A stretch of DNA of 64,000 bases. Origin: Nocardioides nitrophenolicus (GTDB lineage: Bacteria; Actinomycetota; Actinomycetes; Propionibacteriales; Nocardioidaceae). Of the stretch, positions 51,298 to 58,607 are shown piece after piece; within the stretch, counting starts at the first letter, position 1; each line of letters opens with the position of its first letter. Position numbers and translations under genes: made by a program. The stretch spans positions 1,674,001-1,738,000 of the forward strand of contig NZ_JAFBBY010000001.1 in the NCBI RefSeq assembly GCF_016907515.1, given 5' to 3'. Below the pieces are notes generated by a model. It worked only from the letters and a program-made list of their open reading frames with translations. It had not been told where the DNA came from and made no database searches.

Positions 51298-51389
51298 CCA
51301 CGGGGTCCGCCACGGGGTCCGCCACGGGGTCCGCCACGCGGTCCGCCACGCGGTCCGCCACGCGGTCCGCCACGCGGTCCGCCACGCGG
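51298..51389. repeat. 12-bp tandem repeat array upstream of the five-gene operon
   Basis: Seven full copies of a 12-mer (three of CCACGGGGTCCG, then four of CCACGCGGTCCG) and an 8-bp partial copy. The unit length is a multiple of three, so all frames stay open, but no ORF through it has a ribosome site or continues into the next gene. It ends 67 bp before the SWIM-gene ATG. Confidence 0.85.
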
Positions 51390-51456: not shown

Positions 51457-52752
51457 ATGCCCCGCTGGAACCTGGCGGCCGTCGAGAAGGCCGCGCCGGA
51501 CGCCTCCTCCCTGACCGCCGCCCGCAGGCTCGCGGTGCCGGGCCCGTGGTCCGAGACCGGCAGCACCGACACCCTCGTCTGGGGCCGTTGCCAGGGCAGC
51601 GGGCGGACGCCGTACCAGGTGTCGATCGACCTGGCCGCGCCGGCGTACCGATGCAGCTGCCCGAGCCGGAAGTTCCCGTGCAAGCACGCCCTGGCGCTCC
51701 TGCTGCTGTGGGTGCGCGCCGACGGTGCGGTTGCCGATGCGGCCGAGCCCGCGGGGTTCGCCGGCGACTGGGCGGCGACCCGGGCCGGGCGAGCAGCGGG
51801 CGCCGCGGCAGCCGAGGCCCGACGATCGGTCGACCCCGTGGCCCGTGCCCGCCGGGTCGAGGAGCGGCGGGCGACGATGTCGGCGGCGTTGGAGGACTTC
51901 GCGCAGTGGCTGGCCGACCTGGCCCGCGGCGGTACGGCGACCGCCCGCCGCCAGCCGTGGACCTGGTGGGACGCCGCGGCGGCGCGGCTGGTCGACGGGC
52001 AGGTGCCGGGACTGGCGGAGCGGCTGCGCGACATGGCGGGCGCGGTGGGCGGCCGCGAGGACTGGGCGGAGCACCTGCTGACCGAGGCGGGCCGGTGGTG
52101 GCTGGCGGTGCAGGCCTGGCGCCGGTGGGAGGAGCTGACGCCCCAGACGCAGGGCGATCTGCGCACCTACCTCGGCTGGTCGTGGGGCGCCGACGACCTG
52201 CCCGACGCGGAGCCGGCGGCGGGCTGGCAGGTCCTCGGCGCGCACCGCGACGAGACCGGCCGGCTCAAGGAGCAGCGCACCTGGCTGCGCTCGGTCGCGA
52301 GCGGCGAGCTGGTCCTGGTCCTCGACTTCGCCGGCGGCCCGCAGCCGCTGCCGGTCCCCCAGCTCGACGGCAGCATCCTCGACGTGCCGCTCGTCCGCTA
52401 CCCCGGCTCGGCCCCCACCCGCGCCCGCTTCGCCGCCACTCCCGCTCCGCTCGCGCTCGACGTCCCGCTGCCGACCGGCGGCTCGCTCGCCGACGCCCGC
52501 GGGACGCTGAGCGAGCTGTGGCGGCGCAACCCATGGGCGGTGCGGGTGCCGGCGGTGGTGCGGGGCCGCCTCGTCCCGCCCGCCGACGGCGTCCCGGCCC
52601 GGCTCGTCGACGAGTACGGCGAGGAGGCCGACGTGCTCGGGCCGGACCCGTGGGACGCGCTGGCCGCGACCGGCGGCGCGGTGACCGACGTGTTCGGCGA
52701 GCTCGAGGAGCGCGGGCTGCGGCCGCTCAGCCTCGCGGGGGTGGACCGGTGA
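51457..52752 (+). CDS. SWIM zinc-finger protein, first gene of the MoxR/VWA operon (YehQ-like)
   Basis: A 431-residue protein with a SWIM zinc finger CxCx6CxH near the N-terminus: Cys66, Cys68, Cys75 and His77 in YRCSCPSRKFPCKHALALLL. The rest is mostly helical then beta-rich (WGADDLPDAEPAAGWQVLGA, GELVLVLDFAGG), with no enzyme motif. SWIM fingers bind DNA or proteins. The stop overlaps the next start as GTGA. In E. coli the SWIM protein YehQ accompanies YehL (AAA+), YehM and YehP (VWA), the same set as here. No clear ribosome site precedes the ATG. Confidence 0.85.
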   Translation: MPRWNLAAVEKAAPDASSLTAARRLAVPGPWSETGSTDTLVWGRCQGSGRTPYQVSIDLAAPAYRCSCPSRKFPCKHALALLLLWVRADGAVADAAEPAGFAGDWAATRAGRAAGAAAAEARRSVDPVARARRVEERRATMSAALEDFAQWLADLARGGTATARRQPWTWWDAAAARLVDGQVPGLAERLRDMAGAVGGREDWAEHLLTEAGRWWLAVQAWRRWEELTPQTQGDLRTYLGWSWGADDLPDAEPAAGWQVLGAHRDETGRLKEQRTWLRSVASGELVLVLDFAGGPQPLPVPQLDGSILDVPLVRYPGSAPTRARFAATPAPLALDVPLPTGGSLADARGTLSELWRRNPWAVRVPAVVRGRLVPPADGVPARLVDEYGEEADVLGPDPWDALAATGGAVTDVFGELEERGLRPLSLAGVDR

Positions 52753-54092
52753 GCGCGAGCTGGTGGCAGCAGACCACCGCCGCCGCGCTGCTCGGCACCG
52801 AGCGCCGTGAGCCGCCGCCGCTGCCCCCTGAGCTCGGCGTCGCGCCCCGTGCCGGGAGCACCCCCGAGACGGCGCTGCTCGACGCCGCCGCCGTCGGCGG
52901 CGCCCTGCTCCGCGCCCGGCTTCCGGCGTGCCCCGCGGGCGAGCTGCCCGAGCCGGCCGCGCCCGACGCCATCCCGCTCGCGCCGCCGGCCGCCGTCCAG
53001 CTCCTCGGTCTGCTCGTCGACCAGCCGCCGGTCGCCGCGCGGCTGCGCCCGCTCGCTCTCGAGCGGTGGCTGCAGGCCGCCGCCGACCGCGGCGTCCGGG
53101 TCCCGGCACGCGCCCTGCCCCGGCTGCTCGCCCTGGCCACCCAGCAGTCGGAGCTGCGCGCCGCCACCCGGCCGGTCATCGGCGAGCGCGGCCGGTGGCT
53201 CGCCGGGCTGCGGTCCGACTGGACCTGGGCGGTCGCGCCCGAGCCGGCGCCCGTCGCGGCTACGCCAATCGCGCCCGACGACTGGCACGCCCTCCCGGCC
53301 GCCGCCCGCGCCGACGCGCTGCCGGCCGACGACCTCGATCTGCTCGAGGCAGCCCTCGACGACCGCTCCGACAAGGTACGCCGCCAGGCGCTCGCCCTGC
53401 TCGACGCGGCCCCGACCTCGGCGCGGGCCGCCCGGATGGCCGCGCGGCTGCGCCCGCTCCTGGCGTCGACCGGCCGGCTCCGGCGCGGTCTCGAGATCAC
53501 CCTGCCCACCGCCCCCGACGCGGCGGGCGTCCGCGACGGGCTGACCACCACCCGCGGCGGCTCGCAGCGCGAGCGCTGGCTGGAGCTGATCGCGGCCGGC
53601 GCACCCCTCGCCGTGTGGACCGAGGTCACCGGCAAGGATCCGGCCCACACCTGGCCGCTGATCACCCAGCCGGCGGCCCGGGCCGGCGTACTCCGGGCGG
53701 TCCGGGCGCGGGGCGAGCTCGCCTGGGCGGCGGCCGCGGTCGCTGACAGTCCCGACCTGCTGGCGGTGCTGCCGGTCGACCACCAGGACGCGACCGCGCT
53801 CCACCTGCTGCGCACGACGAAGGCCCCGGCCGCCGTCGCGGCGGTGGTCCGCCACGTCTCGCCGCCGTGGAGCCCGGCGCTGAGCGCGGCCGTGGTCGAC
53901 CTCCTTCGCCACACCACGCCGGCCGGCGGGTCCGCCGCCGTGGCGCTGCCGTCCCTGGCCGCCGGCCTGCACCCCTCGGTGCGTCCCGCGGTCTCCGCCT
54001 GGGCCCGCGCCGAGAGCCGGTGGGGCTCGCTGCCCGCCGACCTCGACCAGTACCTCTCGTTCCTACCCGCGATCACGGAGGCCTTCCGATGA
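52749..54092 (+). CDS. DUF5691-type protein, second gene of the MoxR/VWA operon
   Basis: A 447-residue helical protein beginning SASWWQQTTAAALLGTERRE. The body is a series of HEAT/ARM-like helix pairs (LDLLEAALDDRSDKVRRQAL, ARAARMAARLRPLLASTGRL), which suggests a scaffold. The family assignment to DUF5691 rests on the N-terminal pattern and operon position, and the molecular function is unknown. The GTG overlaps the SWIM stop (GTGA) and the TGA overlaps the MoxR start (ATGA), so translation is coupled on both sides and a stoichiometric complex is likely. Confidence 0.75.
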   Translation: MSASWWQQTTAAALLGTERREPPPLPPELGVAPRAGSTPETALLDAAAVGGALLRARLPACPAGELPEPAAPDAIPLAPPAAVQLLGLLVDQPPVAARLRPLALERWLQAAADRGVRVPARALPRLLALATQQSELRAATRPVIGERGRWLAGLRSDWTWAVAPEPAPVAATPIAPDDWHALPAAARADALPADDLDLLEAALDDRSDKVRRQALALLDAAPTSARAARMAARLRPLLASTGRLRRGLEITLPTAPDAAGVRDGLTTTRGGSQRERWLELIAAGAPLAVWTEVTGKDPAHTWPLITQPAARAGVLRAVRARGELAWAAAAVADSPDLLAVLPVDHQDATALHLLRTTKAPAAVAAVVRHVSPPWSPALSAAVVDLLRHTTPAGGSAAVALPSLAAGLHPSVRPAVSAWARAESRWGSLPADLDQYLSFLPAITEAFR

Positions 54093-55186
54093 CCCAGACC
54101 GAGCCGACCGACGGGGTGCTGCGCCGACACGCCGAGGACGAGTACGCCCACGAGCTCGCCGCGCTGGCCGCCGCCGACGACCGACCGCGGCCACCGCGGT
54201 GGCGGCTCTCGCCGTGGGCGGTGACCACCTACCTCCTCGGCGGGCGGCTCGATGACGGCACCGTGATCAGCCCCAAGTACGTCGGGTCCCGCCGCCTCAT
54301 GGAGATCGCCGTCGCCTCGCTGGCGACCGACCGCGCACTGCTCCTCCTCGGCGTCCCCGGCACCGCCAAGTCCTGGGTCAGCGAGCACCTCGCGGCCGCG
54401 ATCAGCGGCAGCTCGACGCTGGTCGTGCAGGGCACCGCCGGCACGCCCGAGGAGTCGCTGCGGTTCGGCTGGAACTACGCCCGCCTGCTCGCGGAGGGGC
54501 CCTCACGTGAGGCGCTGGTGCCGAGCCCGGTGCTGCGGGCGATGGAGGCGGGCGCGCTGGTGCGCGTCGAGGAGCTCACCCGGATCCCGGCCGACGTGCA
54601 GGACGCGCTGATCTCGATCCTCTCCGAGAAGACGCTGCCGATCCCCGAGCTCGATGACGAGGTGCAGGCGCGGCGCGGGTTCAACGTGATCGCGACCGCC
54701 AACAACCGCGACAAGGGCGTCAACGAGCTGTCCTCGGCGCTCAAGCGCCGGTTCAACACCGTGGTGCTGCCGCTTCCCGACAGCCTCAGCGAGGAGGTCG
54801 AGATCGTCCGCACCCGGGTCGCGAGCATCGGCCAGGGTCTCGCGCTGCCCGACGAGCTCGCGGCGACGCCCGAGATCGAGCGGGTGGTGACCATCTTCCG
54901 CGAGCTGCGCGGCGGGATGACGCTCAACCAGCGCACCACCGTGAAGTCCCCGTCGAGCACGCTGTCCACCGCCGAGGCGATCTCGGTGATGACCAACGGC
55001 GTCGCCCTCGCCGCCCACTTCGGCGACGGCGTGGTCCGCGCCGACGATCTCGCCGCCAGCATCACCGGCGCGGTCGTCAAGGACCCGGTCCAGGACGCCA
55101 TCGTGTGGCAGGAGTACCTCGAGACCGTCGTCAAGGACCGCCCCGAGTGGGCCGACCTCTACCGCGCCTGCCGGGAGCTGAGCTGA
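54089..55186 (+). CDS. MoxR-family AAA+ ATPase (YehL-like)
   Basis: A 365-residue AAA+ ATPase. Walker A is GVPGTAKS at 88-95, Walker B is ALVRVEELTRIPADVQDALI, sensor 1 is NVIATANNRDKGVNELSSAL and the Arg finger region KRRFNTVVLPLP. MoxR ATPases act as chaperones that load metals or remodel partners, nearly always with a von Willebrand factor A protein, which is two genes downstream here. The ATG overlaps the upstream stop (ATGA), and its own TGA overlaps a CTG that probably starts the next gene. Confidence 0.93.
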   Translation: MTQTEPTDGVLRRHAEDEYAHELAALAAADDRPRPPRWRLSPWAVTTYLLGGRLDDGTVISPKYVGSRRLMEIAVASLATDRALLLLGVPGTAKSWVSEHLAAAISGSSTLVVQGTAGTPEESLRFGWNYARLLAEGPSREALVPSPVLRAMEAGALVRVEELTRIPADVQDALISILSEKTLPIPELDDEVQARRGFNVIATANNRDKGVNELSSALKRRFNTVVLPLPDSLSEEVEIVRTRVASIGQGLALPDELAATPEIERVVTIFRELRGGMTLNQRTTVKSPSSTLSTAEAISVMTNGVALAAHFGDGVVRADDLAASITGAVVKDPVQDAIVWQEYLETVVKDRPEWADLYRACRELS

Positions 55187-57396
55187 CCACGAGCGCCCGG
55201 GTCGAGATCCTCGGCGTACGCCACCACGGCCCGGGCTCCGCACGCTCGGTCGCCGGCGCGCTCGACGAGCTCGCGGCCGACGCGGTGGTGATCGAGGGGC
55301 CGCCGGAGCTCGACTCCCTGGTCCCCCACGTCGGCGACGGGCTGGTGCCGCCCGTGGCCGGCCTGGCCTATGCCACCGCCGAGCCCTGGCGGGCCGCGTT
55401 CTACCCGATGGCCGCCTTCTCCGCCGAGTGGGTCGCGCTCACCTGGGCGGTCGAGCACGGCGTACCCGTCCGGTTCGCCGACCTGCCCGCCGCCCACGCC
55501 CTCGCACCGACCGACGCCGACCAGGACCCCGACGAGCCGGAGCAGCGCACCGACCCGATCACCCTGCTCGCCACCGCCGCCGGCTACGACGACCCCGAGC
55601 GCTGGTGGGAGGACGCCGTCGAGCACCGGGCCGAGTCGTCGCTCGCGCGGTTCGCGCTGCTGCGCGAGGCGATGGCCGAGGCCCGCGCGTCCGGCCCGGT
55701 GAGCGCCGACAACCTGCGCCGCGAGGCGGCGATGCGCAAGGTGCTGCGGGCGACGATCAAGGCCGGCCACGAGCGGATCGCGTTCGTGTGCGGCGCCTAC
55801 CACGCGCCCGCGCTGGACCCGGCGGGCTTCCCGTCCCAGGTCGCCGACGCCACGCTGCTGTCGCGGCTGCCGAAGGTGAAGGTGACCACGACCTGGGCGC
55901 CGTGGACGGCGGGCCGGCTGGCCTATGCGAGCGGCTACGGCGCCGGGGTCACCTCGCCCGGCTGGTACCAGCACCTCTTCGCCTGCTGGGCCGCGGACCG
56001 ACCCGGCGACGTCGTCCCCGGCTGGCTGACCCGAGTCGCCCGGGCGCTGCGCGACGACGGCCTGGACGCCGCTCCGGCGAGCGTGGTCGAGGCGGTGCGG
56101 ATGGCCGAGGCGCTGGCCGCCGTGCGCGGGCGGCCGTCGGCCGGCCTCGACGAGCTGATGGACGCCAGCCAGAGCGTGCTCTGCGGCGGCTCGGCGGTCC
56201 CGCTCGGGCTCGTCGAGCGGCGGCTGGTCATCGGCGAGGAGCTCGGGCGGGTGCCCGACACCGTGCCCCTGGTGCCGCTCGCCGAGGATCTCGCCCGCAC
56301 CCAGCGCCGGCTCCGGCTCAAGCCGTCCCCGACGCCCACGACGATCACTCTCGACCTGCGCAAGGAGGGCCAGCTCGACCGCTCCCGGCTGCTCCACCGG
56401 CTGGCCCTGCTCGGCATCCCGTGGGGCACGCCCGCCGACGCCGGCCGCACGACCGGCACCTTCAAGGAGGCCTGGGAGCTCGAGTGGCAGCCGGAGTTCG
56501 CCGTGTCCCTGGTCGAGGCCGGACTGCTCGGCACCACCGTCCGCGGCGCCGCGGAGACCCGGGTCCGGGAGGCGGCCGCCGCCGCGGGCGACCTGGCCAC
56601 GCTGGGCCGGCTGATCGAGTCGGCTCTGGTCGCCGACCTCCCCCGCGCACTCGCCACCGTGGTCGACGCGCTGGCCGCCGCCACCGCCCACCAGCACGAC
56701 ACCCGCTCGCTGCTCGACGCCGTCGAGCCGCTGGCCCGCACCCAGCGCTACGGCGACGTCCGGCGTGCCGACCTGGGCCGGGTCCGCGAGGTGCTCGCCA
56801 CCGTCGTCGTCCGGGCAGCGGTCGAGCTGCGCGCGGCCTGCAGCGGTCTCGACGACGACGCGGCCGCGGCGCTGCGCGCCTCGATCGACAGCGCCCAGCG
56901 CGGGATCGCGCTGGTCAGCGTCGGCGCCGACCGGTGGCGCGAGGCGCTGTCGGCCGTGGCCGCCGACGACCGGGTGCACGGCTCGGTCGCCGGCCGGGTC
57001 AACCGGATCCTCCTCGACGGCGCGCACCTCGCGAGCGAGCGCGCCGCCGAACGCCTCAGCCGTCAGCTCTCGGTCGGCGCCGACCCGGTCCGCGCCGCCG
57101 CCTGGCTCGACGGCTTCCTCGAGGGCGAGTCGGTGCTCCTGCTCCACGACCCGACCCTGCTGGCCATGGTCGACGAGTGGGTCGGCCGGGTCGACGAGGC
57201 CGTCTTCGAGGACCTGCTGCCGTTGCTGCGCCGCACCTTCGCCCGGTTCCCGCCCGCCGAGCGGCGCCAGGTCGCGACCCGGGTCTACAACCTCGACCAC
57301 GACCACGCCGACGCCGTGCCCGACCTCGACCTGGTCGCCGGCCGCGACGCCGCCCGCCGGGTCGCCGCGCTCCTCGGCCTGGAGGTGAGCCGATGA
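55183..57396 (+). CDS. DUF5682-type protein (YehM-like)
   Basis: About 737 residues. The N-terminal signature RVEILGVRHHGPGSARSVAG followed by DAVVIEGPPELDSLVPHVGD resembles TraB/haem-binding-uptake-like folds; FVCGAYHAPAL and KVTTTWAPWTAGRLAYASGY are other conserved stretches, and the C-terminal half is helical. Function unknown. The start is odd: no ATG, GTG or TTG lies between the MoxR stop and the GVRHH motif. A CTG at 55183 shares its TG with the MoxR TGA (CTGA), giving the natural N-terminus TTSARVEILG. An in-frame GTG at 55105 inside moxR is the alternative. Its TGA overlaps the VWA ATG. Confidence 0.82.
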   Translation: MTTSARVEILGVRHHGPGSARSVAGALDELAADAVVIEGPPELDSLVPHVGDGLVPPVAGLAYATAEPWRAAFYPMAAFSAEWVALTWAVEHGVPVRFADLPAAHALAPTDADQDPDEPEQRTDPITLLATAAGYDDPERWWEDAVEHRAESSLARFALLREAMAEARASGPVSADNLRREAAMRKVLRATIKAGHERIAFVCGAYHAPALDPAGFPSQVADATLLSRLPKVKVTTTWAPWTAGRLAYASGYGAGVTSPGWYQHLFACWAADRPGDVVPGWLTRVARALRDDGLDAAPASVVEAVRMAEALAAVRGRPSAGLDELMDASQSVLCGGSAVPLGLVERRLVIGEELGRVPDTVPLVPLAEDLARTQRRLRLKPSPTPTTITLDLRKEGQLDRSRLLHRLALLGIPWGTPADAGRTTGTFKEAWELEWQPEFAVSLVEAGLLGTTVRGAAETRVREAAAAAGDLATLGRLIESALVADLPRALATVVDALAAATAHQHDTRSLLDAVEPLARTQRYGDVRRADLGRVREVLATVVVRAAVELRAACSGLDDDAAAALRASIDSAQRGIALVSVGADRWREALSAVAADDRVHGSVAGRVNRILLDGAHLASERAAERLSRQLSVGADPVRAAAWLDGFLEGESVLLLHDPTLLAMVDEWVGRVDEAVFEDLLPLLRRTFARFPPAERRQVATRVYNLDHDHADAVPDLDLVAGRDAARRVAALLGLEVSR

Positions 57397-58607
57397 CCGA
57401 CTCCCCCGCGCCCGAGCCACGCGACCGGCTCACCCGCTGGCGGCTGGTCCTCGGCGGCGACGAGGCAGACCCCGACGACGTCCAGCTCTCGGCCGAGGAC
57501 CTGGTCCGCGACCGCGCCCTCGCCCAGCTCTACGACGGCGGCGCCCCCGGCTCCGGCCGACCCGGCGGCCCCCGCCGCGGCGGCCTGGGCCGCTCCGCGC
57601 CCGGCGTGAACCGCTGGCTGGGCGACATCCGCACCTACTTCCCGTCCTCGGTGGTGCAGGTGATGCAGGCCGACGCGATGGACCGCCTCGGCCTCCACGA
57701 GCTGCTGCTGGAGCCGGAGACGATGGCGGCGGTGCAGCCGGACCTCAACCTGGTGACGACCCTGGTCGGCCTCAACCGCGTCATCCCCGAACACAGCCGC
57801 GCCACCGCCCGCGCCGTCGTGCGGGCGGTCACCGACCAGCTCGAGCAGCGGCTGCGCAGCAAGACCGTCCAGGCGGTCTCGGGCGCGGTCGACCGGGCCG
57901 CCCGCACCCGCCGCCCCCGGCACCACGAGATCGACTGGCGGCGCACCATCGCCGCCAACCTCGAGCACTACCTGCCCGAGCACCGCACCGTCGTCCCCGA
58001 GCGACTGCTGGGGCACGCCCGCCGCAGCCGCCAGACCCAGCGCCACATCATCTTGTGCATCGACCAGTCCGGCTCGATGGCCGAGTCGGTCGTCCACTCC
58101 AGCGTCTTCGGCGCGGTGCTCGCCTCGCTGCGGGCGGTGTCGACGCGACTCGTCGCCTTCGACACCGAGGTCGTCGACCTCACCGACGAGATCGAGGACC
58201 CGGTCGACGTGCTCTTCGGCGTCCAGCTCGGCGGCGGCACCGACATCAACCGCGCCCTCGCCTACTGCCAGTCGCTGATCGAGCGGCCGGAGGAGACGGT
58301 GCTGGTGCTGATCAGCGACCTCTACGAGGGCGGCATCGCCGAGGAGATGCTGCGCCGCGCCCACGCGATCACGTCCTCCGGCGCGGTCATGGTCGCGCTG
58401 CTCGCGCTCAGCGACTCCGGCGCGCCGTCGTACGACGCCACCCACGCCGCCGCCCTGGCCGCGATCGGCGTACCCGCCTTCGCGTGCACGCCCGACCAGT
58501 TCCCCGACCTGATGGCCGCGGCGATCGAGAAGCGCGACCTCGCCCAGTGGGCGGCGGCCAACGACATCGTCATCGCCAGCGCCGTGGAGGACGACGAGGG
58601 CGGCTAG
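57393..58607 (+). CDS. Von Willebrand factor A domain protein (YehP-like), last gene of the MoxR/VWA operon
   Basis: A 404-residue protein. The N-terminal half is helical (DVQLSAEDLVRDRALAQLYD; RWLGDIRTYFPSSVVQVMQA). The C-terminal VWA domain carries an intact MIDAS: Asp224 in IILCIDQSGSMAES (DxSxS), Thr in GGGTDINRAL and Asp in LVLISDLYEGG. A bound metal lets VWA domains grip partners, typically a MoxR ATPase client complex. The ATG overlaps the upstream stop (ATGA). The gene ends the operon, with a 4-bp overlap with the convergent small membrane protein. Confidence 0.92.
   Translation: MTDSPAPEPRDRLTRWRLVLGGDEADPDDVQLSAEDLVRDRALAQLYDGGAPGSGRPGGPRRGGLGRSAPGVNRWLGDIRTYFPSSVVQVMQADAMDRLGLHELLLEPETMAAVQPDLNLVTTLVGLNRVIPEHSRATARAVVRAVTDQLEQRLRSKTVQAVSGAVDRAARTRRPRHHEIDWRRTIAANLEHYLPEHRTVVPERLLGHARRSRQTQRHIILCIDQSGSMAESVVHSSVFGAVLASLRAVSTRLVAFDTEVVDLTDEIEDPVDVLFGVQLGGGTDINRALAYCQSLIERPEETVLVLISDLYEGGIAEEMLRRAHAITSSGAVMVALLALSDSGAPSYDATHAAALAAIGVPAFACTPDQFPDLMAAAIEKRDLAQWAAANDIVIASAVEDDEGG

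Follow-up and report, generated by a model that had tools for sequence, protein, structure and literature searches.

A conserved five-gene MoxR-VWA operon of Nocardioides nitrophenolicus with DUF5682 as a putative enzyme

What task unites five tightly packed genes encoding a SWIM zinc-finger protein, a DUF5691 protein, a MoxR-type AAA+ ATPase, a DUF5682 protein, and a VWA protein? The genes lie, in this order and all on the forward strand, as five open frames at positions 51457–58607 of a 64,000-nucleotide stretch of the Nocardioides nitrophenolicus genome (contig NZ_JAFBBY010000001.1, positions 1,674,001 to 1,738,000), referred to here as the window, to which all coordinates apply. The operon is real and broadly conserved, belongs with the MoxR-VWA systems, and yields an enzyme hypothesis open to test, its function being undescribed in the literature found. 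DUF5682, DUF5691, and DUF4132, the last a family encountered beside related loci, all carry Pfam names that mark a family or domain as having no known function, with DUF5682 and DUF5691 receiving no mention in the open-access literature searched, and no paper on the function of the related E. coli genes yehLMPQ among the matches listed there (most subscription journals lie outside this coverage). The best explanation of the operon as a whole, to which we assign a probability of about 0.5, is that the MoxR-VWA pair activates or loads a putative DUF5682 enzyme, with the other subunits serving as adaptors.

Conservation of the unit and its two companion sets

Across 296 genomes from the window's own phylum, DUF5682 occurs in 21 and DUF5691 (above cut-off) in 18, all 18 among those 21, with the same nesting seen in 249 Pseudomonadota genomes (DUF5682 in 11, DUF5691 above cut-off in five, all among these); a further 3 and 2 genomes lacking DUF5682 gave DUF5691 matches below cut-off, which were left uncounted. 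MoxR and VWA genes stand beside DUF5682 in 29/29 actinobacterial regions, joined by SWIM and DUF5691 in 17, and in six of the 29 DUF5682 and VWA share one open reading frame (ORF). A scan of named genomes, covering the best 80 of 586 loci ranked by how closely they resemble an alignment headed by the window protein, and thus an uneven sample, found all five families in 59 of the 61 DUF5682 loci with enough flanking sequence, spanning seven phyla. Both exceptions are cyanobacterial, one carrying DUF5682 alone (L095) and the other DUF5682 and VWA (L109). The window's order and strand are kept in 61 of 82 fetched five-family loci, more often than chance would give, the remainder comprising 13 in which SWIM and DUF5691 are divergent, 7 in which they share one ORF, and 1 rearranged locus; a Deinococcus plasmid carries the same five families together with a small hypothetical protein. 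The five families form one conserved unit; the first-pass annotation of this DNA had named a lack of conserved co-occurrence as grounds for abandoning its idea of one machine, and no such lack was seen. Four cyanobacterial DUF5682 genes (L078, L082, L095, and L109, the first two near contig ends) were seen without some or all partners nearby, so these partners may have their genes at other sites or may not be needed in these cyanobacteria.

More broadly, a MoxR-DUF5682-VWA core is accompanied by one of two nearly exclusive companion sets, either SWIM and DUF5691, or DUF4132, to which a YehQ-like SWIM protein may be added. DUF4132 was found in 8 of the 12 actinobacterial loci lacking DUF5691 (L049–L056), lying several kb away in the six with a DUF5682-VWA ORF, and in seven of the eight Pseudomonadota loci lacking DUF5691, one of which (L196) has DUF4132 frames between DUF5682 and VWA. 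The eighth (L194) shows no DUF4132 in ~7 kb upstream, its contig ending 350 bp downstream. Neither set was seen in the four remaining actinobacterial loci (L057–L060), and only one five-family locus among those searched (L123) also carries DUF4132. By profile, a YehQ-type SWIM protein is present in E. coli, L050, L051, L192, L193, L195, and L197, with weak matches (27–33 bits) in L050, L192, and L195. The loci L057–L060 form a divergent actinobacterial VWA-MoxR-DUF5682 variant, and in the scanned piece of L058 Pfam does not detect DUF5682 at E 0.5.

The E. coli cluster represents the second arrangement, with DUF4132 (yehI) upstream of yehLMPQ and the small yehK between. Like the window operon, it holds MoxR, DUF5682, and VWA in the same order together with a SWIM-finger protein; unlike it, it carries DUF4132, with DUF5691 found neither in the yeh stretch nor in the control genome of E. 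coli, whereas none of the five window proteins matches DUF4132 in Pfam. The E. coli counterparts previously suggested for the operon hold for yehL, yehM, and yehP, with yehM matching PF18934 at 2.4e-98 and YehM being 25% identical to the window DUF5682. YehQ has two SWIM fingers and is encoded last in its cluster, and its profile similarity to the window SWIM protein is too weak (p = 0.017) to call the two orthologues.

The MoxR-VWA pair and the DUF5682 enzyme candidate

In the window MoxR protein (AAA_5, 126.9 bits), Walker A, the arginine finger, and sensor 1 are all intact, with N205 and R221 conserved in 106/106 and R220 in 105/106 aligned sequences, and the linked VWA protein (VWA_CoxE, 180.8 bits) has a complete MIDAS (D224-S226-S228-T283-D309). 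The canonical Walker B of AAA+ proteins has Asp-Glu. In all 106 MoxR sequences, E. coli YehL included, it is instead Glu-Glu, and R-x-E-E also occurs in all 12 Pseudomonadota regions added later (11 by pattern, L191 by reading). Walker B varies within AAA+ proteins and does not define MoxR-VWA pairs, and Glu-Glu is not taken to signal a lost ATPase function. As in NorQD, CbbQO, CoxDE, RavA-ViaA, and Mg-chelatase, a MoxR-clade AAA+ protein with P-loop and sensor is encoded in one operon with a VWA_CoxE protein bearing an intact MIDAS; unlike those pairs, the present kind comes with DUF5682 and usually one of the two companion sets, and no respiratory, Rubisco, CODH, or chelatase genes were recognised among the recurring neighbours.

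DUF5682 had been cast as a scaffold or effector, and now looks like an enzyme, with its N-terminal part predicted to form a TraB/Tiki-like domain attached to an alpha-solenoid. The TraB/Tiki superfamily is defined by the residues GxxH, Glu, Arg, and GxxH, and these occur in TraB order in the N-terminal domain of DUF5682, with the matching residues (H14, E38, R180, G204, and H207) invariant in 64/64 sequences across operon types; YehM keeps the TraB-type residues as well. In a PDB realignment (VIA), as in a search of viral structures, the first row points to TraB. Support for the likeness from sequence profiles and from the PDB ranking by Foldseek itself is weak, with hhalign giving p values of 8.6e-4 and 0.0024 (probability 12–23%) and Pfam staying below cut-off, in one member each. 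The Pfam DUF5682 match itself begins at residue 23, past the first motif. TraB/PrgY/GumN and ChaN hydrolases share with DUF5682 the order and rough spacing of the motifs and may share the fold predicted for its N-terminal domain, whilst DUF5682 differs in the replacement of the first Gly by Pro in 8/64 sequences, in its fusion to a large solenoid, in its tie to MoxR-VWA, and in a sequence similarity under Pfam thresholds. DUF5682 is probably not a mere scaffold, its modelled N-terminal domain probably resembling TraB/Tiki hydrolases, and is probably cytosolic, with no signal peptide seen by eye.

DUF5691 is predicted to be nearly all helical (pLDDT 88.8) and gives weak matches to HEAT/ARM solenoids, and on this model is a HEAT/ARM-like alpha-solenoid. 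The HEAT-like character first ascribed to it is upheld on those matches, and the P-loop, VWA MIDAS, and four SWIM ligands described as intact in the first-pass annotation are present and conserved in relatives.

These observations of gene linkage, shared ORFs, conserved catalytic-type residues, and predicted folds lead us to propose that the five gene products make up a single MoxR-VWA-type machine for ATP-driven remodelling. In PMC7159879, MoxR-VWA pairs are described as capturing dedicated partners through the VWA protein and restructuring them with ATP, and PMC13036017 describes metal insertion by NorQD. In the proposed machine, the MoxR AAA+ ring would pull on or twist the CoxE-type VWA protein, and the dedicated client would be DUF5682. 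DUF5682 combines an enzyme-like site with MoxR and VWA neighbours in all 29 actinobacterial regions and with a shared VWA ORF in six, and is most simply read as the client or catalytic subunit. ATP hydrolysis may switch DUF5682 on through metal insertion, opening of the active site, or removal of an inhibitor or product, whilst the DUF5691 solenoid and the SWIM protein could form an adaptor arm that recruits substrate or docks the machine, its place being taken in the E. coli-type version by DUF4132 and the YehQ-like SWIM protein. Beyond the observations, the proposal supposes that a complex forms, that DUF5682 has hydrolase chemistry and depends on metal, and that remodelling runs in the direction described.

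With a putative TraB/Tiki-like site recognised, a supposed scaffold becomes a candidate enzyme whose residues to mutate can be named. The core shared by both arrangements, with its two exchangeable arms, lets E. coli yehLMPQ serve as a convenient model for a machine of many phyla; among the E. coli genomes searched, about 95% contain DUF5682 (yehM). A bolder reading, which we offer only tentatively, is that the operon represents a new class of machine, cytosolic and ATP-dependent, whose MoxR-VWA motor would drive DUF5682 as a TraB/Tiki-type metallohydrolase, with exchangeable recognition arms, in at least seven phyla and including E. coli yehLMPQ.

Alternative functions

The same anatomy, with DUF5682 so consistently beside MoxR and VWA and in six regions in one ORF with VWA, could also serve ATP-dependent proteolysis, in which SWIM and DUF5691 would recognise substrate proteins, MoxR-VWA would unfold or deliver them, and cleavage would fall to the TraB/Tiki-like domain of DUF5682, making the enzyme the working subunit rather than the client. 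Tiki proteins are metalloproteases, and DUF5691 and the C-terminal part of DUF5682, both solenoids, suit substrate recruitment; however, Tiki/TraB relatives are not all proteases. PMC7159879 lists a YebA-coupled MoxR-VWA system as likely to act in peptide degradation, but describes pairs of known function as mostly remodelling dedicated partners rather than feeding proteases, and we regard proteolysis as unlikely. Lower still do we rate a chaperone for an unlinked client, comparable to RavA-ViaA with respiratory enzymes, in which DUF5682, DUF5691, and SWIM would be structural and the TraB-like domain catalytically dead. The large solenoid content and the lack of an obvious client gene among the recurring neighbours of the operon would fit such a role, but a dead domain is not expected when the TraB-type polar residues are strict in every sequence aligned.

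The conflict or defence function that had also been entertained for the operon finds no support here, and a MoxR-vWA ternary-type system with DUF5682 as third component and effector is the least probable of these alternatives. It would share with the ternary conflict systems of PMC7159879 (VMAP, iSTAND, beta-propeller, and FtsH types) the layout of a MoxR-vWA pair and a third protein, and P. aeruginosa arc2 (PA4317-23), which protects against a rival's ColA toxin according to PMC8926400, resembles the operon in its MoxR and VWF-domain proteins. However, the third component of the window operon is DUF5682, with neither Pfam nor PADLOC revealing a third component of the VMAP, iSTAND, propeller, or FtsH type together with variable effectors, the bpMoxR model PF20030 matching below cut-off (23.3 vs 27 bits), and PADLOC yielding an IetA match alone (E 0.019). 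The words SWIM, TraB, EreA, and yeh are absent from the main text of PMC7159879. Furthermore, E. coli has yehLMPQ as a near-core cluster, 5162/5426 genomes carrying 80% or more of it and 5320/5322 places being chromosomal, and the DUF5682 tree largely follows phyla, with 8 label changes against 23.4 when shuffled (1 each for Actinomycetota, Cyanobacteriota, Chloroflexota, and Bacteroidota, 4 for Pseudomonadota, and 3 for Planctomycetota). Of 82 recurring neighbour clusters, the five that reach at least two phyla are DUF4132 and four common families, and no relative was found in the viral contigs searched. The phylum-following tree, the near-core chromosomal state in E. coli, the uninformative PADLOC result, and the few cross-phylum neighbours together favour an old cellular function, for which the evidence speaks whilst leaving room for others.

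Gene layout and neighbouring features

Coordinates are given in Table 1. The five families are the only ones above Pfam cut-off in the operon, besides overlapping AAA and VWA models. All four junctions overlap by 4 bp (GTGA, ATGA, CTGA, and ATGA in order), which bears out the earlier description, with the CTG start of DUF5682, on which the third overlap depends, being uncertain. Alternative in-frame starts lie upstream at GTG 55147 (40-bp overlap) and GTG 55105. Of 72 co-directional loci from relatives, 36 have an in-frame NTG here that overlaps the TGA stop of MoxR (GTGA 12, CTGA 11, TTGA 7, and ATGA 6), so the CTG start is plausible, though unproven.

Table 1. Genes, domains, and motifs of the operon in window coordinates
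Feature	Position	Strand	Remarks
SWIM zinc-finger protein gene	51457..52752	+	ATG start, 431 aa; Pfam SWIM PF04434, E 2.6e-7
SWIM finger C66-x-C68-(x6)-C75-x-H77	51652..51687	+	Ligands kept in 83-84/86 aligned sequences
DUF5691 gene	52749..54092	+	GTG start, 447 aa; PF18944, E 4.4e-72; GTGA overlap with SWIM gene
MoxR-type AAA+ ATPase gene	54089..55186	+	ATG start, 365 aa; AAA_5, E 7.3e-37; ATGA overlap; counterpart E. coli YehL
Walker A GVPGTAKS	54350..54373	+	Includes K94/S95; G88, G91, K94 invariant in 106/106 aligned sequences
Walker B region R-V-E-E	54563..54574	+	R159, E161, E162 invariant in 106/106 aligned sequences
DUF5682 gene	55183..57396	+	737 aa if CTG start; PF18934, E 1.2e-231; CTGA overlap; counterpart E. 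coli YehM
N-terminal TraB/Tiki-like alpha/beta domain of DUF5682	55183..55968	+	About residues 1-262, predicted
First motif G11-V-R-H14-H15 (GxxH-like)	55213..55227	+	H14 64/64, H15 63/64, G11 56/64 (Pro in 8)
Second motif C203-G204-A-Y-H207 (GxxH)	55789..55803	+	G204 and H207 64/64
C-terminal part of DUF5682, mostly alpha-solenoid	55969..57393	+	Predicted structure
VWA protein gene	57393..58607	+	ATG start, 404 aa; VWA_CoxE, E 3.3e-53; ATGA overlap; counterpart E. coli YehP
MIDAS DxSxS (D224-S228)	58062..58076	+	D224, S226, S228, D309 104/104; T283 101/104

Streptomyces/Catenulispora-type loci, including L032–L039, have sucC/sucD-like ORFs close to the operon, along with an ORF that looks by eye like a B12-binding mutase domain, with no such neighbour clusters seen in other phyla in the comparison of recurring neighbours. 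Additionally, the window carries a 12-bp tandem repeat, CCACGCGGTCCG, at 51298..51389 (7.7 copies, 98% matches), ~70 bp upstream of the SWIM start.

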